DNA from: Chloroflexota bacterium
GTDB lineage: Bacteria; Chloroflexota; Dehalococcoidia; JACQGW01
Length of the DNA stretch: 20,475 bases
Reading direction: 5' to 3'
Assembly: GCA_016199325.1 (NCBI GenBank)
Contig: JACQGW010000161.1
Span: 1-20,475, forward strand
The position numbers and the translations under genes were made by a program. The stretch's first letter is position 1. Each line of letters starts with the position of its first letter. Shown here in pieces: positions 5,907 to 20,475 of the stretch. Below the pieces are notes generated by a model. The model was not told the origin of the DNA, made no database searches, and worked only from the letters and a program-made list of their open reading frames with translations.

Positions 5907-8546
5907 TTACATGACTGTGCGCGGCTTGAAGGTCATCTCGTCAAACGTATGCTTGTACGGCGACTCCCCGATCTTCTCGATCTGGGCCTTGCCCAGTTTA
6001 TAGCGGTACACGTTGGTAATGGGGTCGGGCACGCGATGCACCAGCGAGTTGGTCGGGCTGGACGGATGCAGGAAGTTCGTAAAGAGCACTCCCGGTGCCA
6101 CGTCGTCCGAGATGATCGCCACCGCGGTAACGTCGCCCCGGCCTTGTCGGATGAGCCCGGCCTTCTGGAGATCGGTGAAGGTGTGATCCTTCACCCGAAC
6201 CCAACCCCCGGTCTGGATCAGGATGTCGTCGCTGAACAGCCGCACCACGTCCCCGCTCTCGATGCCGTACCGGGCAGCGTCGTCGGGATGGATGTCTACC
6301 CACGTATCCGGCCAGCGGTTGTGGATGTACGGCTTGCGGTGGTCGTCGAACCCAGACTGCCACACCTCGTTGACGCGCCCCGTTACCAGCCAGAGCTCGC
6401 CTTTTGCCGGGTTGGGGGTCACGCGTTGGTAGAAATCGCCGAAGAGCTCCCATGGACTCTTCAGCAAGAGCGCTTTGCCAGAGTGGGAATTGAACTGCGT
6501 GAGCCACTTGGCGTGAACGGTGGGGCCTTCCGGGGAGCCGAGCTCGAGCGTTGAGTCGTGCAGGCGTACCGTGCCCTCCATTCGGCCGTTGACCCAGCGG
6601 ATGGGGGTCTGGATGCCCTCGGTGCCAAGCTCGCGTAGGACTTCGTGCCCCGGCTTGGCAATCCGGCGCGCATGCCAGACCAGCACGTAGTAATCGAGTA
6701 CGCCACCGCGGCTGAAGCGTGCGGCCTCCTCGAACACATCATTGCTCGTTTGCCATCGAAAGCCCGCAAAGCCCATCTTCTGGGCGAAGCGACTGATCGC
6801 CCACCAGTCGGGCCTGGCCTCACCCGGCGGATCGTAGAACTTGCTGTAGAGGCGCAAGCGGCGCTCGCCATTGGCACGGGTCGCGTCGTGCTCGCCCCAC
6901 GCGGCCGCCGGGAGCACGATGTCGGCGAGCTCGGTGTTGATCGGCTCCACCGGGTAGATGTCGGAATCGACGATGACCGTACCGCCACCGTCGACGCGGG
7001 CGATGAGTGTCTCGATCATCGCCTGCTTCTCGGTAGAGGTAATCTGGCTAGGATGCTCGACGGTCAGCCGGCGTAAGGTCGCAGCCAACTCCTGGCTGGC
7101 CGCCATCGCCCCGGTCCAGGTGGTGCCGATGACCCAGACGAACCGCGCCTTGCCGGCCGCCACCCAGCGGTCAAGGTCGAGCTCGACCCTGCGTCGGCCA
7201 GGGAGCTTTTCCGGCGACAGCTCGATCGGATACTCGGCCGCACCCATCCACCCCCGCTGGTGGCCGCCCAACCGGCTGATCACCCGTCCCGGCCGATTGC
7301 CGGCGCCGCAGAGCAGGCCCATCGTCGCGAAGGAAGCGGTGTTCAAGTAGTTGTTGCTCCAGTAGCTGCCCTTCTCGAACACGAAGGAGGCTTTGGGACG
7401 CGGGCCGCCGGCACCGGTGAGCATTTCGGCTGCCTTGCGAATCTTCTCAGCCGGAACTCCGGTGACGCGTGCCGCCTGCTCCAGCCTGGCGGGCTCGTAT
7501 TTCAGCAGCCATTCCTTGTAGCCCTTGTAGTCCGCCATGAACTGTCCCCAGGTGGTGCGCCACTGCCAGGGGGTGTTGCGCGGGCCGCGCCCCATCCCGG
7601 CGTCCACATCCCATGTGCTGGCGACCCATTGCTCGATGAACTCCTTGTCCTCCCAGCCTTGCTCCAGGACGATCCGGTTGATGGCCAGGTGCAGCAGGGT
7701 GTCGGTGCCGGGGGTGACTTGCAGGAACAGGCCGCCGTTGGCCTCGGCGTAGGCGATACCGGCGGTACGGCGCGGCAGCGCGAAGATCAGCTTCGGCTTG
7801 CCCATCATCCACGAGGTGAAGACGGTCGTCTTCGTCTCAAAGGGATCGGTACCGGAGACGTAGATCACGTCGGCATCGGCCCAATCCTGATATGAGGCGC
7901 TGAAGGTGATGATACCGGCGTCGTCGACGCCACCGGTATCGGAGCCAATGCTGGGCTTGTCGTGCTGGGCAAACGCTGGCGTCTTGATCGCGTCGAAAGC
8001 CAGCTTGGTGATGGCGTAGGTGTTCTCGAAGAACTCATACGAGTAGGTCTTCATCGCCCACGCCGACTCGCCGTACCTTGCCAGCACGTGCTTGCTCACC
8101 GCCGCCATGACGTCGAGGGCGGTGTCCCAATCCACCCGCGTGAGCCTCCCATTGACCCGGATCTGGGGATACTGCAGGCGGTCACGCGTCGGCGCATCCG
8201 GGTTGTAGCACTTGAGTGCGAGCGTGCCGCCGCGGATGGAGTGATTGCCGCCTTTGTTGACCACCTTGGACTGGAAGTCCGGAACAATGAGGACGTGGTG
8301 CGGTTTCCCGTCCACGCTGACGGTATTGTGCTGGTTCGGGCTGATCCAGCCTCCGAGGATGGAGGTGGGGAAAGCGATACCAAGGGCGTTTTCGTTGGCC
8401 TTTGGTCCGCCCTCCTTACCTTCCGGCCAAACGTACGCCTTGTAACCGCAGGCGACGATGCAGTAGGCACAAGCTGTCGTGTAGACGTTGGCATCCGGCG
8501 GGGGCAGCGGAACGTGATCGCGAAACGTGTACTTACTCATCGTCAT
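5907..8546 (-). CDS. idrA: AioA/IdrA-family molybdopterin oxidoreductase, large catalytic subunit (iodate reductase-like or arsenite oxidase-like)
   Basis: 879 aa (877 if the ATG at 8540 is used, which has better spacing from GGAGG). Full-length DMSO-reductase-family enzyme binding Mo-bis-MGD. An N-terminal C26-x2-C29-x3-C33 with a serine (S103 in NHSIRGG) where other members have a fourth Cys gives the [3Fe-4S] pattern of AioA. Arsenite-site equivalents are H195, R425 and H429 (RLGGHQRG), but the glutamate position holds D203 (HDKPSIGSD). There is no signal peptide, so export must rely on the Rieske partner, as in AioBA. It is the last gene of the operon, 22 bp behind the Rieske gene. Two di-haem peroxidase genes upstream are the mark of iodate reductase loci (idrABP1P2) and are not part of typical aio operons, so I favour an IdrA-type oxyanion reductase. 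The symbol is provisional; a divergent arsenite oxidase is the alternative. Confidence 0.88.
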   Translation of the reverse strand: MTMSKYTFRDHVPLPPPDANVYTTACAYCIVACGYKAYVWPEGKEGGPKANENALGIAFPTSILGGWISPNQHNTVSVDGKPHHVLIVPDFQSKVVNKGGNHSIRGGTLALKCYNPDAPTRDRLQYPQIRVNGRLTRVDWDTALDVMAAVSKHVLARYGESAWAMKTYSYEFFENTYAITKLAFDAIKTPAFAQHDKPSIGSDTGGVDDAGIITFSASYQDWADADVIYVSGTDPFETKTTVFTSWMMGKPKLIFALPRRTAGIAYAEANGGLFLQVTPGTDTLLHLAINRIVLEQGWEDKEFIEQWVASTWDVDAGMGRGPRNTPWQWRTTWGQFMADYKGYKEWLLKYEPARLEQAARVTGVPAEKIRKAAEMLTGAGGPRPKASFVFEKGSYWSNNYLNTASFATMGLLCGAGNRPGRVISRLGGHQRGWMGAAEYPIELSPEKLPGRRRVELDLDRWVAAGKARFVWVIGTTWTGAMAASQELAATLRRLTVEHPSQITSTEKQAMIETLIARVDGGGTVIVDSDIYPVEPINTELADIVLPAAAWGEHDATRANGERRLRLYSKFYDPPGEARPDWWAISRFAQKMGFAGFRWQTSNDVFEEAARFSRGGVLDYYVLVWHARRIAKPGHEVLRELGTEGIQTPIRWVNGRMEGTVRLHDSTLELGSPEGPTVHAKWLTQFNSHSGKALLLKSPWELFGDFYQRVTPNPAKGELWLVTGRVNEVWQSGFDDHRKPYIHNRWPDTWVDIHPDDAARYGIESGDVVRLFSDDILIQTGGWVRVKDHTFTDLQKAGLIRQGRGDVTAVAIISDDVAPGVLFTNFLHPSSPTNSLVHRVPDPITNVYRYKLGKAQIEKIGESPYKHTFDEMTFKPRTVM

Positions 8547-8568
8547 TTCCTCCCGCGAGACAGGCTCA

Positions 8569-9135
8569 CTACCTGCCTCGCTCTGCGGCTGGATCGACCC
8601 GGTTGTTGTGAAAACCGTACAGCAACCCCATCACGCCCGTGGCGACAATGTCGTCGCCCTCGAGCTCCAGGACGATCTGCGGCAGGCCCTCGGTAGCGTG
8701 GCCGCTCACGACCATCCCGTGCCGGGTGAGATCGAAGGTGGTGAGGTGGAGCGGACACGGCCCGAGAACCTGATGTTCGGCGTTCAGGCGGCCCGCGAGC
8801 GGGCCGCCCTGATGAGGACAGAGGTTGTTGAACGCCACCACGTCCAGGGCCGGGCCAATGCCGCCGCCGGCCGGTTTGCCCAGCTTGTACAGGAAGTTGG
8901 TGCAGTTGGGATGGTCGAAGGGGTATTTGAACTCGACCGGCTGGCCCAGCTTGAGCGTGCTCAACTGCCCAACCTTCTGACGTGGATAAGCGGCCATCTG
9001 CAGGCTCAACCCTTCGGCCGCCGGTACGCCGTGCAGGAACCGGGGCATCGCCAGCGTGACGAGGGCGCCACCGCCGAGGAAGAGGAACTGGCGGCGGGTC
9101 AGGGCCGCTTTGGGATCACAGGCCTTGGCAGTCAT
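8569..9135 (-). CDS. idrB: Rieske [2Fe-2S] small subunit with Tat signal (AioB/IdrB-like)
   Basis: 188 aa. The twin-arginine signal TRRQFLFLGGGALVTLA is at residues 13-29, predicting Tat export with the cofactor-loaded large subunit as passenger. Rieske ligands: C106-P-H108 (CPHQGG) and C127-x2-H130 (CPLHLTTFD). The extra Cys of each box that forms the disulfide in bc1-type Rieske proteins is absent (G110 and L131 instead). The ATG overlaps the stop of the upstream peroxidase gene by four nt (ATGA at 9135-9132), so translation is probably coupled. It should shuttle electrons between the molybdenum enzyme and a membrane or cytochrome c partner. The Rieske-then-large-subunit order is as in aioBA; in the iodate reductase loci I know, the large subunit comes first. 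Confidence 0.9.
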   Translation of the reverse strand: MTAKACDPKAALTRRQFLFLGGGALVTLAMPRFLHGVPAAEGLSLQMAAYPRQKVGQLSTLKLGQPVEFKYPFDHPNCTNFLYKLGKPAGGGIGPALDVVAFNNLCPHQGGPLAGRLNAEHQVLGPCPLHLTTFDLTRHGMVVSGHATEGLPQIVLELEGDDIVATGVMGLLYGFHNNRVDPAAERGR

Positions 9136-10343
9136 CGGGGACCTCCCTGCGTGGGTATGCGCCAGACTTCGTAAGCCGGCAGTTGGGGTGCTTCGACGAC
9201 GATCTTGTCACCGCACAAGCTCTTCAGGAATGCGACGAGATCGCTCTGCTCGCCGGCGGTGAGATTCGGCGGCCGGAGCAGCGGGTCCTTGTGGGGAAGG
9301 GTTCCGCCCCCAGCGTTGTAGAACCCGACCACGTCCTCGAGTGTGGCGAAGGCGCCGTTGTGCATATAGGGCGCAGTGTAACAGGTATCGCGCAGGGACG
9401 GCGTCCGGAACTTCCCCCTGTCGCTGTCCAGCTTGGTAACGTAATACAGGCCAAGGTCGGTGTCCATCGCGCCGTATTCGCGCTCCGACATGCCGCGCGC
9501 CCAGTACTGCCAGCGGGCGGTGATCTGTCGGAGGGGATTTGTCTGGAAATCCGGCGCGGTCGGCACGCCGATGTTGTGGAAGCCATCGTCGCTCACGAGT
9601 GGCCCGTTGTGGCAGGCGATGCAGTTCGCCTTGCCGGCAAACAGCTCGTAGCCGCGCCTGGCTGGAGCCGAGATGGCGTTCCGCTGGCCTCTCAGATAGG
9701 CGTCGAACGGCGCATTGCGCGAGACGATGGTTCGCTGAAAGGTGGCCACGGCCTTGAGGGCGTCGCCGTACAGCGGGTACTCCGTGCCGAACACCTCTTT
9801 GAACCGCCGCACATACTCCGGAATCTGCGCGAGCCGCTCCTCAGCCATGAACGGATCGAGGTTGCCGGCTAACGCACCCGTCCAGGCGCTGTCGGCCTGT
9901 TTCTCGAGGCTGTTAGCCGAGCCATCCCAGAAGAGCTTGGTGTAGTAGGCGGCGTTGATGACGGTTTGGGAATTGCGCCAGTGGGTGGTGCCCGGATAGC
10001 CGAACGAGATCGGGCTGCCGATGCCCCAACTCCCGTCGTTCGCAGGGTGGCAACTGTTGCACGAGGTGCTCCCGTCGCCGGAGAGGCGTGGATCGAACCA
10101 CAGCAGCTTGCCCAGATCCGCCTTCGCGTCCGAATACGGGTTGTCTCCGGGGAAGGGCACGGGCGGGAGGGAGGCGAGCGCCGGGTACTCGGATTGGACG
10201 GCTGGCTGGGGTGGATGCGTAAACCAGAGACCGGCGAAGACGAGGACCAGCCCCAGGCCGAGTCCTAGCAGCCACCATGCCCGGCGCAAACCGAGCAGCC
10301 GCCGCTGCGGCGGGTTCTGTTGCGGAGGAGGTGCCGGCTTCAT
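9132..10343 (-). CDS. Di-haem cytochrome c peroxidase family protein (CcpA/MauG-like; IdrP-type)
   Basis: 403 aa. One N-terminal TM helix (about 22-41, WWLLGLGLGLVLVFAGLWF) anchors it with the catalytic part outside. Two c-type haem sites: CNSCH (95-99) and CIACH (241-245). Other family blocks: LGKLLWFDPRLSGDGSTSC, WRNSQTVINAAYY followed by WDGSA, and TAPYMHNGAFATLEDVVGFY near the C-terminus. Length is slightly above that of classical di-haem peroxidases because of the anchor. The start codon overlaps the end of the upstream tri-haem gene (ATGA at 10343-10340) and its own stop overlaps the Rieske start, so it is locked into the operon. Likely role: removing hydrogen peroxide or reactive intermediates made by the molybdenum enzyme, or passing electrons, as proposed for IdrP1/IdrP2. 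Confidence 0.9.
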   Translation of the reverse strand: MKPAPPPQQNPPQRRLLGLRRAWWLLGLGLGLVLVFAGLWFTHPPQPAVQSEYPALASLPPVPFPGDNPYSDAKADLGKLLWFDPRLSGDGSTSCNSCHPANDGSWGIGSPISFGYPGTTHWRNSQTVINAAYYTKLFWDGSANSLEKQADSAWTGALAGNLDPFMAEERLAQIPEYVRRFKEVFGTEYPLYGDALKAVATFQRTIVSRNAPFDAYLRGQRNAISAPARRGYELFAGKANCIACHNGPLVSDDGFHNIGVPTAPDFQTNPLRQITARWQYWARGMSEREYGAMDTDLGLYYVTKLDSDRGKFRTPSLRDTCYTAPYMHNGAFATLEDVVGFYNAGGGTLPHKDPLLRPPNLTAGEQSDLVAFLKSLCGDKIVVEAPQLPAYEVWRIPTQGGPR

Positions 10344-11872
10344 CGGTTGTCTCCCAGTTTGCGGAGTTGATAGTTCGGCTGGGCCGGGGCCTGGACAGCC
10401 GGTAGGTCGCCGGTCAGGCTCTGGAGAAACGCGACGAGCTGCCCGGTCTCGGCTTTGGTGAGCCCGAGCGGCTTGAGGACCTTGTTCCCCGGGCCGCCCC
10501 CGGCGTTGTAGAACTGGACTACCTCGTCGAGCGTCGCGAAGACGCCGTTATGCATGAAGGGCGCGGTGCGGGCGACCTCGCGCAGCGGAGCGGTGCGGAA
10601 GGCCCGTCGGTCGTGTTCTTCCTGCGTCAGGGTGTACCGGCCGACGTCCTCGAATGTGTTGCGGTAGTTTGGGAGGCCGAGGGTGCGGAAGAATCGCCGG
10701 AACGTGATGTGGCGTAGGGGTTCGCGGACGATGTCCGGATTCTCCGGCACACCGAGGGCGTAGAACTTCTGATCGGAGAGGATCGGGCCGGTGTGGCACG
10801 AGGCGCAGCCAGCCTTGCCCTGGAAGAGCACGAGGCCGGCCTTCGCTTCCGACGAGAGCGCGGTCGAGTCGCCGGCCACGGCGCGGTCGTAGGCGCTCGG
10901 GCTGGAGTTGAGCGAGAGAACGTAGGCCGACACAGCCGAGACCATTCGTCCGAAGCTCGGCTCACTGCCATAGGCGTCCTTGAACAGTTGGACGTATTCC
11001 GGCACTTGCTTGAGCCGTTCGACGACCAATCGCCCGTCGGCTTGGAAGAAGTGCGCCTCGGTAAGGTGATCCCGGACAACGGTCGGCAAGTCCCCACTGT
11101 CGAGCCGACCGTCCCAGTAGCTGGAGCTAGTGAAGGCCACGTTGAGCAGGGTCGGCGTGTTGCGGAAGTACAGCGTCCCGGGGTAGCCGTCGCTCAGCGC
11201 CTTCCCATCCGTCCAGGCCTTGTCCGGCTGGTGGCACGAGGCGCAACTGAGCGAAGCATCGGCGGACAGGCGCGAGTCAAAGAAGAGGTGTTTGCCGAGC
11301 AGCACCTCGGCATCCTTGTATTGCTTCGCCGGCGGAGCGAAAGGCTTGTTGGCGGTTTCGGGCGGCCGGACAATGGGGATGGGGGTGAAGACGTAGGCCG
11401 GCGCGCCCGCCGGGCTCTCGCCGGTGAGGGCGGCCAGATAGTCGACGATCAGGTCGATCTCGGCTCGACTAAGGCGCTGGCCGGAGTTCGGCGGCATCAC
11501 GCCCGTTGGACAGGGGCCGCTCGGGCACCTGGGGGCGATGAAGGCCGCCGGGTCGAGGATGGATTCGCGGATGTAGTCCTTGGCGCTCACGCCGGATTTG
11601 CGTGTCGCCGCCTCAGCACCGATCTTGGCAAGGTTCGGGCCGACGAGGCCGACAGCATTGGGGATGTCAGGGATGGTGTGACAGCCCCCGCATCCGGCCT
11701 TGGCGAACACGGCGACGGCAGCCGGATCGGGCGCAGCCAGTGTCGGAGCGCTGCTGGTGGGCGCTGGCGCGGGCGCGCTGCTGGCGGGGGGAGTTCGGCT
11801 GGCGAGCGTAACCCCCACAAAGACCAGGGCCAGCGTCGCGCCGAGCAAGACCCATCTGGGTGTTTGACGCAC
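10340..11872 (-). CDS. Tri-haem cytochrome c peroxidase-like protein (mono-haem domain fused to di-haem peroxidase)
   Basis: 510 aa from a GTG at 11872 with GGAGG six nt upstream. A signal peptide or anchor spans residues 7-24. An extra N-terminal cytochrome c domain follows: CGGCH (61-65) with a probable axial Met at 126 (GVMPPNSGQ). A di-haem peroxidase module then carries CASCH (210-214) and CASCH (356-360), with FRNTPTLLNVAF, WDGR (253-256) and RTAPFMHNGVFATLDEVVQF. The added haem domain makes it about 100-150 residues longer than its neighbour and recalls tri-haem YhjA-type peroxidases that accept electrons directly from quinol; that parallel is inference. It is the first structural gene of the cluster, 110 bp after the regulator gene. 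Probably one of the two IdrP-type peroxidases. Confidence 0.9.
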   Translation of the reverse strand: MRQTPRWVLLGATLALVFVGVTLASRTPPASSAPAPAPTSSAPTLAAPDPAAVAVFAKAGCGGCHTIPDIPNAVGLVGPNLAKIGAEAATRKSGVSAKDYIRESILDPAAFIAPRCPSGPCPTGVMPPNSGQRLSRAEIDLIVDYLAALTGESPAGAPAYVFTPIPIVRPPETANKPFAPPAKQYKDAEVLLGKHLFFDSRLSADASLSCASCHQPDKAWTDGKALSDGYPGTLYFRNTPTLLNVAFTSSSYWDGRLDSGDLPTVVRDHLTEAHFFQADGRLVVERLKQVPEYVQLFKDAYGSEPSFGRMVSAVSAYVLSLNSSPSAYDRAVAGDSTALSSEAKAGLVLFQGKAGCASCHTGPILSDQKFYALGVPENPDIVREPLRHITFRRFFRTLGLPNYRNTFEDVGRYTLTQEEHDRRAFRTAPLREVARTAPFMHNGVFATLDEVVQFYNAGGGPGNKVLKPLGLTKAETGQLVAFLQSLTGDLPAVQAPAQPNYQLRKLGDNR

Positions 11873-11982
11873 GGCGCACCTCCGAAGAGCAGGATGCAGA
11901 TGCTAGCTGCCCTTACTGTACGGCAAAGGTGCGCGTGCGGCGTCACCCTCTGGGATGAAGTCGCTCATCCTGGCGAGTGATC

Positions 11983-12636
11983 TTATTCCAGCCCGTGTCG
12001 GACCGCCCAGAGGGCGGCCTGGGTCCGGTCGGAGACGTTGAGCTTCTCGAAGATGTGTCGGACGTGGGTCTTGACGGTATTGACGCTGAGCGTGAGCGCG
12101 GCGGCGATCCGTTCGTTGTCCAAGCCGTCGGCGAGCAGGCGCAGGACGCGCGCTTCGGCCTCGGTCAGGAGATCGGCCGGGTGCGTCTCCGGTTCGGGGA
12201 TGAGCGTGGTCTCAACGGCGGCCGAGGCCAGGGCGGCCCGCAGCAGCGCCGGATCGAGCAGGTGCTCGCCGGTGGCCGCGGCGCGCACGGCAACCGGGAT
12301 ACGGTCGGGGTCGACCTCTTTGGAGAGAAAGCCCGCGGCGCCGTGCGCGACCGCGCGGGCGAGGTAGCCCGGATTGGCGTGTGAGGTCAGCACGATCACA
12401 CTCGTCTCCGGGCGCGCCGCTTTGATCGCGGCGAGGGCCTGCAGACCGTCGAGGTCCGGCATCCGAATGTCGAGCAGGACGACCTTCGGCGCCAGGGACT
12501 CGGCAAGCGCGATCGCTTCCCGACCGGTGCGCGCCTCGCCGACCACCTGCAGCCCCGCGTGCTGGAGAAGAGCCCGCAGCCCCTCCCGCACGACGCCGTG
12601 ATCGTCGGCGATGAGGACGGTGATCACTGTGGTCAT
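11983..12636 (-). CDS. NarL/LuxR-family response regulator
   Basis: 217 aa. The receiver domain (about 5-120) has the acidic pair D11/D12, phospho-acceptor D56 (LLDIRMPDLDG), the switch region VLTSHAN and the conserved lysine in FLSKEV. The C-terminal LuxR-type HTH (about 150-215) reads LTEAEARVLRLLADGLDNER, then SVNTVKTHVRHIFEKLNVSDR. The ATG overlaps the stop of the histidine kinase gene by four nt (12636-12633), so the pair is translationally coupled. The next gene on the same strand is the tri-haem peroxidase 110 bp away, which makes the respiratory module the obvious target. This differs from aio operons controlled by the sigma54-type AioR. Confidence 0.93.
   Translation of the reverse strand: MTTVITVLIADDHGVVREGLRALLQHAGLQVVGEARTGREAIALAESLAPKVVLLDIRMPDLDGLQALAAIKAARPETSVIVLTSHANPGYLARAVAHGAAGFLSKEVDPDRIPVAVRAAATGEHLLDPALLRAALASAAVETTLIPEPETHPADLLTEAEARVLRLLADGLDNERIAAALTLSVNTVKTHVRHIFEKLNVSDRTQAALWAVRHGLE

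Positions 12637-15142: not shown

Positions 15143-15146
<4 letters not shown>
15118..15146 (-). promoter_or_regulatory. Predicted promoter of the kinase/regulator (and possibly whole redox) operon
   Basis: Minus strand: TTGAGA (15146-15141), 17-nt spacer, TATCAT (15123-15118). The -35 box overlaps the TGA stop of rluD. The predicted start near 15111 gives a leader of about 37 nt. I found no equally good promoter in the 110-bp gap before the peroxidase gene, so this one could serve all six genes. Confidence 0.6.
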
Positions 15147-16051
<905 letters not shown>

Positions 16052-17157: not shown

Positions 17158-17241
17158 GGCGCCTGGATGCTCCGGCGCACGCCGCCGGACAGACCAGGCG
17201 CGCCGTGAACGCTGCGCGGCGGAGGAGTGGAGCGAGCAGCC

Positions 17242-18660
17242 ATGACCACCGGCAATCGCGAGAGCTTTGACATCGTCGTCCTCGGCGGGGGGCCGGCCGG
17301 CTACGTCGCCGCCATTCGGGCAGCCCAGCTCGGCGCCCGCGTCGCCGTCGTCGAGCGCGACCGCGTCGGCGGCACCTGCCTCAACCGGGGGTGCATCCCA
17401 TCCAAGGCGTTCATCGAGAGCGTCCACGTCTTTCGGCAGGTCAAAGAGGCCGCCCGCTTCGGCGTCGACGTCGGCGAGCCGACGCCCAACTGGGCGCGCG
17501 TGCTCGATCGCAAGCGGCAGATCGTGAACCAGCTCGTCGGCGGCGTCGAGGGGCTGCTCAAGGGCCACCGGATCGAGCTCGTCACCGGCAGCGGCCGGCT
17601 GCGGGCGCCGGGCAGGATCGAGGTCCGGCTCCCGAACGGCGAGCGCCGCAACCTGAGCAGCCGATACACGGTGATCGCCACCGGCTCGGAGCCGGCCCGG
17701 ATTCCGGTCCCCGGTGCGACGCTGTCGGGCGTCATCACCTCGGACGAGCTGCTGGAGGTTCCGGCCATTCCCAATCGCCTGGTCATCGTCGGCGGCGGCG
17801 TCATCGGCGTCGAGTTTGCCGGCGTCTTCGCCGGGCTGGGCAGCCGCGTGACGATCGTCGAGATGCTGCCGATGATCCTGGCCGGCGTCGACGACGAAGT
17901 GGCCCGGCGCTTCCTGGCGCTCCTGAAGCGGCAGGGCGTCGAGGTCCACCTGAACGCCCGGGTCAAGGAGGTTCAGGAGGTGGAGCGGGGCCGGCGGGTC
18001 GTGTTCGAAACCGGCGAGGACGAGCGCCAGGCCGAGGGCGACCTGGTCCTCATGGCGACCGGCCGGCGGGCGGTAACCGAGGGTATCGGGCTCGACGAAG
18101 CCGGCGTCCTCCTGAGCGGACGGTTCGTCGGCGCCAACGAGCGGATGGAGACGAACGTGCCGGGCGTCTACGCCGCCGGCGACGTCGTCGGCGGCTGGAT
18201 GCTGGCGCACAAGGCGTTCCGGGAAGGCGAGGTCGCCGTCGAGAACGCGCTGGGCCGCCGGTCGAAGGTGGACTACCGGGCGGTTCCGAACTGCATCTAC
18301 TCCTACCCCGAGATCGCTGGCGTCGGTCTGACGGAGAAACAGGCCCGCGAGAGCGGCGCCAACGTCTCGGTCGCCAAGTACCCCTTCGCCGCCAACGGAC
18401 GCGCGCTGACCCTGGGCGAGACCGACGGCTTCGTCAAGATCGTCGCCGACGCCGATACCGGTGAAGTCCTCGGCGTCCACATCCTCGGCCCGGAGGCGAC
18501 CGAGCTGATCGCCGAGGCCACACTCGCCATTCAGATCGAGGCGACCGTCGAGGACCTCGCGGCCACCATCCACGCCCACCCGAGTCTGGCCGAGGCCGTC
18601 CACGAGAGCGCGCTCGGCCATCTCGAAGGGTCGATCCACTATATGGCGCGGAGGACGTAG
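17242..18660 (+). CDS. lpdA: Dihydrolipoyl dehydrogenase (E3)
   Basis: 472 aa from the ATG at 17242 (GGAG nine nt upstream); a GTG at 17227 would add five residues. FAD-binding Rossmann motif VVLGGGPAGYVAAIRAAQLG, redox disulfide GGTCLNRGCIPSK (C46/C51), NAD-binding VIVGGGVIGVEFAGVFAGLG, second FAD motif NVPGVYAAGDVVGG, and the C-terminal HAHPSLAEAVHE with the His-Glu pair of the dimer active site. It reoxidises dihydrolipoamide with NAD+ as E3 of pyruvate, 2-oxoacid or glycine-cleavage complexes. No E1/E2 genes are adjacent, so it is probably shared between complexes. It has its own strong promoter, and the MDMPI-type gene follows within 70 bp. Confidence 0.95.
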   Translation: MTTGNRESFDIVVLGGGPAGYVAAIRAAQLGARVAVVERDRVGGTCLNRGCIPSKAFIESVHVFRQVKEAARFGVDVGEPTPNWARVLDRKRQIVNQLVGGVEGLLKGHRIELVTGSGRLRAPGRIEVRLPNGERRNLSSRYTVIATGSEPARIPVPGATLSGVITSDELLEVPAIPNRLVIVGGGVIGVEFAGVFAGLGSRVTIVEMLPMILAGVDDEVARRFLALLKRQGVEVHLNARVKEVQEVERGRRVVFETGEDERQAEGDLVLMATGRRAVTEGIGLDEAGVLLSGRFVGANERMETNVPGVYAAGDVVGGWMLAHKAFREGEVAVENALGRRSKVDYRAVPNCIYSYPEIAGVGLTEKQARESGANVSVAKYPFAANGRALTLGETDGFVKIVADADTGEVLGVHILGPEATELIAEATLAIQIEATVEDLAATIHAHPSLAEAVHESALGHLEGSIHYMARRT

Positions 18661-19372: not shown

Positions 19373-20475
19373 ATGACTCTCGAAGACCACTTCGATCCCA
19401 TCTTCACAGCTCGGCTTGCGCTGCGCGAGAAGCAGATCCAGCAGAACTACCGACCGGTCATTGGGGTTCACAAATGGTTCGCACGACGACCGGGGACGGT
19501 GTTTCGGAGTCTGTTGCTGGCGGAGTTCAACGGTCGAGAGCCTCTCGACACCAGCTACTGGCGCGCGCATCAATTGCACGGAGTGATCGCTGATCCGTTC
19601 ATGGGAGGCGGGACGACGCTTTTCGAGGCCAATCGCCTGGGCTTCAATGTCGTCGGTACAGATATCAATCCAATGGCGTGCTGGATAGTCCGGCAATCAC
19701 TGGGGTCACTCGACCTGACAGCGTTTGGAGCGACCGCTGAGGCCGTAGTCGATGAGGTCGAGTGTCAGACAGGTGAGCTCTACAGGACCCGATGCGTGAA
19801 GTGTGGACGACTGGCGATCGTCAAGTACTTCTTGTGGGTGAAGACTGAGACCTGTCCGGTTTGTGGCACTGAGAACGACCTGTTTCCGGGCTATGTGCTG
19901 GCAGAGGCAGGTCGGCATCCCAAACACGTGCTCGTCTGCGCGCACTGCGGCGCCCTGAATGAATACGACACCCAACCTACCCGCACCGCTCCAGCGTTCT
20001 GCGGCGCGTGCGGAAGTCCGGTGCAGGGTTACGGTCCCGCGCGGCGCCAACGCGTGCGCTGTCGAAGGTGCACCAGCGAGTATCCCTACCCGGCGAGGCA
20101 GCCGACCGCTCCACCCAAGCACCGCATGTGGGCGATCGAATACCACTGCGACCCGTGCAAACCAACTCACTCAGGTCGTTTCTTCAAGCGTCCTGATGCC
20201 GAGGATCTTGCCCGGTTCGACCTCGCGAGCGCCATGCTCGCGAGGTCCTCCGGTCTGCCTATCCCGGACGATGCGATCCCGGCCGGTGACGAGACAGACA
20301 GACTTCATCGGTGGGGCTACCGGCGGTACCGGGAGATGTTCAACGAACGCCAACTGCTTGGTCTCGGCTCCCTCCTGCGCCGGATTCACGACGTCAAAGA
20401 GCCTGAGATACGGCATGCTTTGCTCACGGTGTTCTCCGACTTCCTCCGGTATCAGAACATGTTATGTCGATACGA
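19373..20475 (+). CDS. DUF1156/COG1743-like DNA methyltransferase with three zinc ribbons (3' end outside window)
   Basis: 367 codons are open from the ATG at 19373 to the edge with no stop, so the gene is cut by the window. Near the N-terminus, VHKWFARRPGTVFRSLLLAE (32-51) is the conserved start of DUF1156-type methylases. The SAM-binding motif DPFMGGGTTLFEANRLG (74-90) and acidic GTDINPMA (95-102) follow. Then come six CxxC pairs forming three likely zinc ribbons: C141/C144/C161/C164, C189/C192/C210/C213 and C230/C233/C259/C262. The catalytic (D/N)PPY motif is not in the visible part and should lie downstream. Base composition is visibly lower in GC than the neighbours, suggesting transfer. 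It likely methylates adenine or cytosine amino groups in DNA as part of a restriction or defence locus. Confidence 0.82.
   Translation, partial: MTLEDHFDPIFTARLALREKQIQQNYRPVIGVHKWFARRPGTVFRSLLLAEFNGREPLDTSYWRAHQLHGVIADPFMGGGTTLFEANRLGFNVVGTDINPMACWIVRQSLGSLDLTAFGATAEAVVDEVECQTGELYRTRCVKCGRLAIVKYFLWVKTETCPVCGTENDLFPGYVLAEAGRHPKHVLVCAHCGALNEYDTQPTRTAPAFCGACGSPVQGYGPARRQRVRCRRCTSEYPYPARQPTAPPKHRMWAIEYHCDPCKPTHSGRFFKRPDAEDLARFDLASAMLARSSGLPIPDDAIPAGDETDRLHRWGYRRYREMFNERQLLGLGSLLRRIHDVKEPEIRHALLTVFSDFLRYQNMLCRY

Follow-up and report, generated by a model that had tools for sequence, protein, structure and literature searches.

The 20,475-nucleotide stretch of DNA analysed here (contig JACQGW010000161.1, hereafter the window) carries on its minus strand, from position 5907 to 11872, four adjacent genes that in our judgment are probably the idr operon of a Chloroflexota bacterium and encode an iodate reductase that is exported. 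In the order of transcription, the genes and their parts are as follows.

10340..11872, minus strand: idrP1, a tri-haem protein of 510 amino acids (aa) with CXXCH motifs at residues 61, 210 and 356
Within idrP1, minus strand: a mono-haem cytochrome c domain (about residues 46-165) followed by a di-haem peroxidase domain (residues 175-495)
11378..11737, minus strand: the DNA of the fused mono-haem cytochrome c domain (IdrP1 residues 46-165)
9132..10343, minus strand: idrP2, a di-haem peroxidase of the CCP/MauG family, 403 aa, with CXXCH at residues 95 and 241
8569..9135, minus strand: idrB, a Rieske [2Fe-2S] subunit of 188 aa with the twin-arginine motif LTRRQFL and CPH...CPLH cluster motifs
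5907..8546, minus strand: idrA, the molybdopterin catalytic subunit, 879 aa, with a CX2CX3C [3Fe-4S] motif (Cys26, 29 and 33)

A first-pass annotation, made from the letters of the sequence, had described a tri-haem peroxidase, a di-haem peroxidase, a Rieske protein with a twin-arginine translocation (Tat) signal and a molybdoenzyme of the AioA/IdrA family, and the open reading frames (ORFs) together with Pfam and NCBIfam searches confirm all four. IdrP1 matched Cytochrom_C and CCP_MauG and IdrP2 matched CCP_MauG, with PF03150 found in both peroxidases (141.5 bits in IdrP2 and 135.2 bits in IdrP1); IdrB matched Rieske and TIGR02694 (103.5 bits), and IdrA matched Rieske_3, Molybdopterin, Molydop_binding and TIGR02693 (446.8 bits). 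Since the E-values of these family matches reach down to 1e-133 and relatives with an enzyme of 48-82% identity retain the order, the four-gene set is not a chance assembly. The genes had also been said to be locked together by 4-nucleotide (nt) overlaps; this holds for idrP1/idrP2 (10340-10343) and for idrP2/idrB (9132-9135), whereas idrB and idrA are separated by a gap of 22 nt (8547-8568), or of 28 nt if idrA begins at a second ATG (8540), 6 nt further on, which may be its start and has a compatible spacing to a GGAGG-like stretch. By eye, the N-terminus of IdrA (MTMSKYTFRDHVPLPP) has no visible signal peptide and IdrB bears the Tat motif LTRRQFL and the Rieske motifs CPH and CPLH; inspection of both IdrP1 and IdrP2 found a hydrophobic N-terminal stretch. 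The predicted structure of IdrA was good (predicted local distance difference test score, pLDDT, 86.5) and revealed the AioA fold alone, as expected, while that of IdrP1 was poor (mean pLDDT 60, predicted template modelling score 0.41), was unusable and was not used as support.

As the first-pass annotation had proposed, the 879-aa protein was placed in a tree with AioA and IdrA sequences. The main tree, built with IQ-TREE in quick mode under LG+G4, held 99 sequences; those of loci L154 and L155, which are in pieces, were excluded. The results showed that 86 Idr sequences, including that of the window, are set apart from 12 AioA sequences and one odd relative (L148) by a branch of length 0.73 with a support of 100. 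The window enzyme groups with those of L009 and L021 (support 100) in a clade of 10 Chloroflexota sequences (support 98), which in turn is sister to three sequences of Gemmataceae-type Planctomycetes (support 99). Three known iodate reducers, namely Denitromonas iodatirespirans IR-12 and the species Roseovarius azorensis and Notoacmeibacter marinus, lie inside Idr as well, in a mainly proteobacterial clade of 39 sequences, and the window IdrA is 57-58% identical to theirs. Growth on iodate is impaired when idrA is deleted (excerpt of PMC9732548, citing the IR-12 work), and both R. azorensis and N. marinus reduce iodate (excerpt of PMC11445184). Because the tree program flagged long branches that meet between AioA and the other sequences, the tree was rebuilt under LG+C20 with 41 sequences of our own picking. 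This second tree agreed with the first (support of 94 for the Chloroflexota clade), and forcing the window sequence onto AioA cost 27 log units and was rejected by the approximately unbiased (AU) test (p-AU 0.00107).

The placement was matched at the level of single residues. Twenty-eight discriminating columns were picked from the 12 AioA and the 39 IdrA sequences of the known-reducer clade, with the window left out to avoid circularity; at these columns the window reads 21 Idr, 1 Aio and 6 other. The position of Glu207 in the AioA of Pseudorhizobium NT-26 is Asp203 in the window, an Asp in 78/86 Idr sequences and a Glu in 12/12 AioA. The CX2CX3C cysteines are found in 85 of the 86 Idr sequences (the remaining one has a gap there) and in all 12 AioA.

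One rival explanation is that the locus encodes an arsenite oxidase (AioBA) beside which two peroxidase genes happen to lie. The tree, the AU test, the 21 to 1 balance of the columns and the Asp203 residue all argue against it, and no ars gene was recognised among the 10 ORFs, a subset of those in the window, that were searched for families. Further evidence comes from Chloroflexota themselves. When 400 genomes of this phylum were searched with TIGR02693 at its cut-off, 11 passed: nine with AioA (990-1280 bits), the IdrA genome at the centre of the set (446 bits) and the odd genome G342. Eight of the nine AioA loci were compared together with their flanks, and all eight have the order B-A and no peroxidase match, so that the earlier statement that aio operons lack a peroxidase pair held throughout this set. 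Compared with the AioBA of NT-26 (L004), Thermus (L005) and Chloroflexota (L140-L147), the window shares the fold, the cofactor motifs and the Rieske partner, as well as the B-A order of the Chloroflexota aio loci fetched, yet it is only about 29-34% identical to them, has Asp203 in place of Glu, and has two peroxidase genes in its operon where these loci have none. We therefore regard this explanation as highly improbable. As a matter of family membership, arsenite oxidase is ruled out by the tree, the AU test, the residue columns and the aio-locus comparison; a side activity on arsenite is conceivable.

Several points nonetheless weigh against assigning the enzyme to iodate. The known reducers form a separate sub-clade, and the function would thus have to be carried over a deep split. 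In NT-26 AioA we take the arsenite pocket to consist of His199, Glu207, Arg447 and His451; the positions of His199, Arg447 and His451 are unchanged in all 86 Idr sequences and in AioA, so that sequence alone cannot exclude arsenite. The NCBI model labels the window enzyme an arsenite-oxidase-family protein, and no c551- or moaA-like gene adjoins the operon within the window. As regards the label, the window scores 446.8 bits with TIGR02693 against 990-1280 bits for the nine Chloroflexota AioA, and this model does not separate IdrA from AioA, since the IdrA-placed relative G007 (the genome of L009) passes it at 445.6 bits.

The AioA-like protein of G342 (L148:4390-7467) falls between AioA and IdrA. 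It is coded in two overlapping frames, its larger piece reads 3 Idr and 10 Aio of the 28 columns, and its locus has no peroxidase match. A possible home for it is the unknown outgroup clade shown in PMC8692401, a paper in which a Dehalococcoidia relative without peroxidases was used as outgroup.

The gene order of the window had at first been taken for a rearrangement of A-B-P1-P2. Order was scored at 84 Idr loci, consisting of 80 from GTDB genomes (the best 80 of 512 relatives found), three plasmids and the window. P1-P2-B-A is the transcription order in 56 of them, the window included, and A-B-P1-P2 occurs in none (0/84). The 56 include D. iodatirespirans IR-12 (L056), N. marinus (L064) and R. 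azorensis (L068), which are known iodate reducers at strain or species level. Other Chloroflexota such as L009 and L021 have this order too. A rearranged order is thereby ruled out, and 'idrABP1P2' is a naming order, not a gene order. The literature is in keeping with this: according to excerpts, idrAB always has idrP1P2 before it (PMC8801600), and the order in Ca. M. iodofontis is idrP2, P1, B, A, identical to those of SCT and IR-12 (PMC10989891).

Among the other 28 loci, nine read P2-B-A, five A alone, three B-A, two P1-B-A and one B-P2-A (L015); with the exception of L030, each of these 20 partial orders either stops where a contig or record ends or has a fused P1-P2. Five more are of Dehalococcoidia type with P2-A, the odd order of L054 is by our reading an artefact of ORF extension, and L038 consists of broken pieces. 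Among the 84 loci, only L066 (4918-10767), which reads P2-B-A-P1, is clearly rearranged with its four genes still side by side. In L030, from a metagenome-assembled genome (MAG) of Planctomycetaceae, no B, P1 or P2 could be recognised within some 7 kb of IdrA. In the Dehalococcoidia type (L025, L026, L027, L029, L036; L149, L150, L151) the idr genes are split, with P2-A at one site and P1-B on a separate contig in three of five genomes; IdrB was not found in the other two. IdrA is spread over two frames at L154:5639-8285 and at L009:7001-9636 (in L009 near the end alone), which reflects a frameshift or an assembly fault. Vibrio sp. THAF190c reads P-P-B-A, and the plasmid of Azonexus hydrophilus NCP973 is annotated with a kinase, a sigma-54 regulator, two consecutive peroxidases, the small subunit, the large subunit, a c-type cytochrome and moaA; no iodate paper on A. 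hydrophilus was found in the open-licence literature. The idr genes of this plasmid (L001:14287-19829) have TnsA-like and IS21 genes in their vicinity, in keeping with a mobile island.

The feature that sets the window operon apart is the haem-bearing N-terminus of IdrP1. Tri-haem cytochrome c peroxidases such as E. coli YhjA, or quinol peroxidase, consist of a di-haem peroxidase with an extra N-terminal haem domain, and IdrP1 resembles this type in domain plan as generally described. The ORFs of 91 loci were scanned with a profile of the P1 N-terminus (residues 45-165, from an alignment of 37 proteins) at an E-value of 1e-4. A cytochrome c domain was found fused to the P1 peroxidase (CCP) domain in 12 of the 91, in three architectures: c-CCP in the window, L008, L009, L021, L152 and L154; c-CCP-c in L011, L014, L048 and L155; and c-CCP-CCP, with P1 and P2 in one protein, in L012 and L013. 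Within the 13-sequence clade of Chloroflexota and Gemmataceae-type Planctomycetes the fusion is present in 10/10 loci with a readable P1 (contig ends leave none in L153, L010 and L015), and it is also present in L154 and L155, which stand outside the tree. Beyond this kin, no P1 or P2 in the 91 loci matched the profile at 1e-4, including those of L037 and L040, whose P1 and P2 each contain three CXXCH; matches to unfused ORFs, some of them weak, occurred in L019, L023, L042, L058, L062 and L084. The solved 417-aa peroxidase 9qdt matches the di-haem part of IdrP1 alone, best over residues 170-377. The lineage-specific tri-haem IdrP1 is thus a distinctive feature of the Chloroflexota/Gemmataceae-type branch. 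A fused cytochrome in 12/91 loci and a separate small cytochrome gene in 12/88, with both in none, is not an independent test and is not relied on, as each trait is confined to one part of the tree. In addition, P1 and P2 are fused in one frame in five loci (L012, L013, L035, L044 and L087; 733-890 aa) at four places in the tree, which suggests that P1 and P2 act as a pair.

The conserved unit is larger than four genes. Upstream and on the same strand lie a response regulator gene and a histidine kinase gene, which overlap by 4 nt.

11873..11982: a gap of 110 nt between the response regulator gene and idrP1, the probable site of the operon promoter
11983..12636, minus strand: a response regulator of NarL/LuxR type, 217 aa
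12633..15221, minus strand: a histidine kinase with sensor/Cache, HAMP, GAF, HisKA_3 and HATPase domains, 862 aa from the listed start, which is provisional

These two genes belong to a conserved six-gene cassette: the order kinase, regulator, P1-P2-B-A is common to the window, L009, L021, L152 and L154, and L008 ends at the regulator, where its contig ends. The response regulator is 67-86% identical among these relatives, and the other genes of the window found no match in the flanks of the relatives examined but for a weak one of the dihydrolipoyl-dehydrogenase family in L009, so the cassette is compact. A NarL/LuxR-type regulator is not special to idr, as one is also found near BA in six of the eight Chloroflexota aio loci (L142-L147).

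Set against known systems, the window resembles IR-12 (L056), which has the same P1-P2-B-A order, a two-component pair upstream and an IdrA that is 58% identical. It differs from IR-12 in the fused mono-haem domain and three CXXCH motifs of its IdrP1, in having no small cytochrome gene, and in its NarL/LuxR-type regulator, where L056 has a sigma-54 type. Pseudomonas sp. SCT, a further known IdrABP1P2 system, was compared from the literature (order as given in an excerpt of PMC10989891). It is also like the Chloroflexi MAG loci L008, L009 and L021 and the loci L152 and L154, which all have a tri-haem IdrP1 as in the window and an enzyme 73-82% identical (66-77% for the pieces of L154). The Caldilineaceae-type loci (L011, L014, L048 and L155) and the Gemmataceae-type loci (L012 and L013) belong to the clade of the window, L155 not being placed, and have an N-terminal cytochrome c on IdrP1; they differ from it in their c-CCP-c plan or in the fusion of P1 and P2 as c-CCP-CCP. 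An excerpt of PMC10989891 gives a Chloroflexi protein as the best match of the IdrP1 studied there.

From gene content, gene order, clade membership, residue pattern and domain fusion, all observed at the locus, we infer a substrate, a direction, an electron path and a mode of regulation. IdrA, lacking a signal of its own, would probably be exported by the Tat signal of IdrB. Electrons from the quinol pool would reach the Rieske centre of IdrB via a cytochrome c and pass to the [3Fe-4S] cluster of IdrA and on to its molybdenum bis-pyranopterin guanine dinucleotide, where iodate would be reduced to hypoiodous acid, which would then disproportionate. IdrP1 and IdrP2 would clear the hydrogen peroxide formed en route; the role of the two peroxidases is treated as a hypothesis in excerpts of published work. 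The mono-haem domain of IdrP1 is most likely the entry point of electrons to the peroxidase and perhaps replaces the separate small cytochrome gene of some beta- and gammaproteobacterial operons, and the two-component pair upstream probably turns the operon on. One may go further and see the cytochrome-bearing IdrP1 of the Chloroflexota/Gemmataceae-type branch as part of the electron path itself, its mono-haem domain replacing a soluble c-type carrier so that cytochrome, peroxidases and IdrAB form one surface-bound respiratory unit. We hold this only tentatively, including its more radical form, a shift to another oxidant.

That an oxidant of similar chemistry such as bromate, chlorate or another oxyanion is reduced, or that the substrate has shifted in the Chloroflexota/Gemmataceae-type branch, would agree with the deep branching of the window beyond the sub-clade of known reducers, with the 6 of 28 columns that are neither Idr nor Aio, with the extra haem domain, and with the groundwater origin of its two nearest relatives, iodate being expected to be scarcer in groundwater than in the sea. 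However, the locus has the pocket positions and the set of four genes seen with IdrA, and nothing points to a particular alternative substrate, which makes this explanation quite improbable. Of the first-pass proposal of a distinct branch of oxyanion respiration, the distinct branch stands, within IdrA; nothing indicates a different substrate. It is also conceivable, though unlikely, that the operon serves to detoxify iodate or peroxide at low oxygen and yields no energy by respiration, a role with which iodate as substrate would still be compatible. In aerobic marine bacteria that carry idr, iodate reduction takes place mainly in static cultures with limited oxygen, and they could not be grown anaerobically in the conditions tried (excerpt of PMC11445184), whereas Denitromonas and Aromatoleum, with the same operon, grow by iodate respiration (excerpts of PMC8692401 and PMC8801600). 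An exported iodate reductase thus continues to be the reading we favour, and the identification of an IdrABP1P2-type operon made at first sight is borne out by the tree, the residue columns and the gene set.

The host, first guessed to be a Chloroflexota, is likely to be one, judging from the RluD gene beside the operon and the kin of the operon. When RluD (15143-16048) was compared with 27 genomes, 11 of them Chloroflexota, its 10 best matches were all Chloroflexota; the eleventh Chloroflexota genome (G009) came twelfth, below a deltaproteobacterial genome. A dihydrolipoyl-dehydrogenase-like protein (17227-18660) did not separate the phyla, its best match being a Myxococcales MAG. The nearest IdrA relatives are Chloroflexi MAGs, the two nearest (L009 and L021) from groundwater. 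Among the named kin of the enzyme are MAGs of Anaerolineae and Anaerolineales, and the nearest genomes, G007 and G012, fall in one class with MAGs of Caldilineaceae; both would point to Anaerolineae as the class of the host. A relative of the window IdrA at E <= 1e-60 occurs in 10 of the 396 genomes in G012's class, six of them already known, so idr is rare and patchy there. By its place in the main tree, the idr gene set of Chloroflexota appears as two separate lineages: one of Anaerolineae type, which joins the Gemmataceae-type Planctomycetes, and a Dehalococcoidia branch.

In the open-licence literature we found no description of idr in Chloroflexota, SAR202 or Anaerolineae, which does not establish its absence from print. 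In the accessible portions, 'iodate' occurs once each, in the reference list alone, in PMC11264602, PMC12300337, PMC12195580 and PMC11040949, and 'Chloroflex' is absent from the text of PMC8692401, PMC10746228 and PMC10100899, whose figures may show such hosts. What is known here is the iodate-respiration gene set in its usual order; what stands out are the host range and the tri-haem IdrP1, and this is not a new kind of system. The interest of the locus lies in these two features and in its likely mislabelling. With Chloroflexota added to the recognised carriers of idr, the range of organisms that may take part in iodine cycling becomes broader. This bears on surveys of iodine cycling that use marker genes, since proteins of this kind are named arsenite oxidase in source records and the NCBI model does not discriminate; idr could then be mistaken for a sign of arsenic metabolism. 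A way to test what the two peroxidases do is offered by the cytochrome fusion and by the recurrent joining of P1 and P2.

The G+C content is 64.9% in the four genes, 68.4% in the two-component genes, 69.3% in the left flank and 67.4% in the right flank. A gene resembling N6/N4 DNA methylases, with a weak match to a zinc ribbon, lies at 19373-20473 and continues past the window end.

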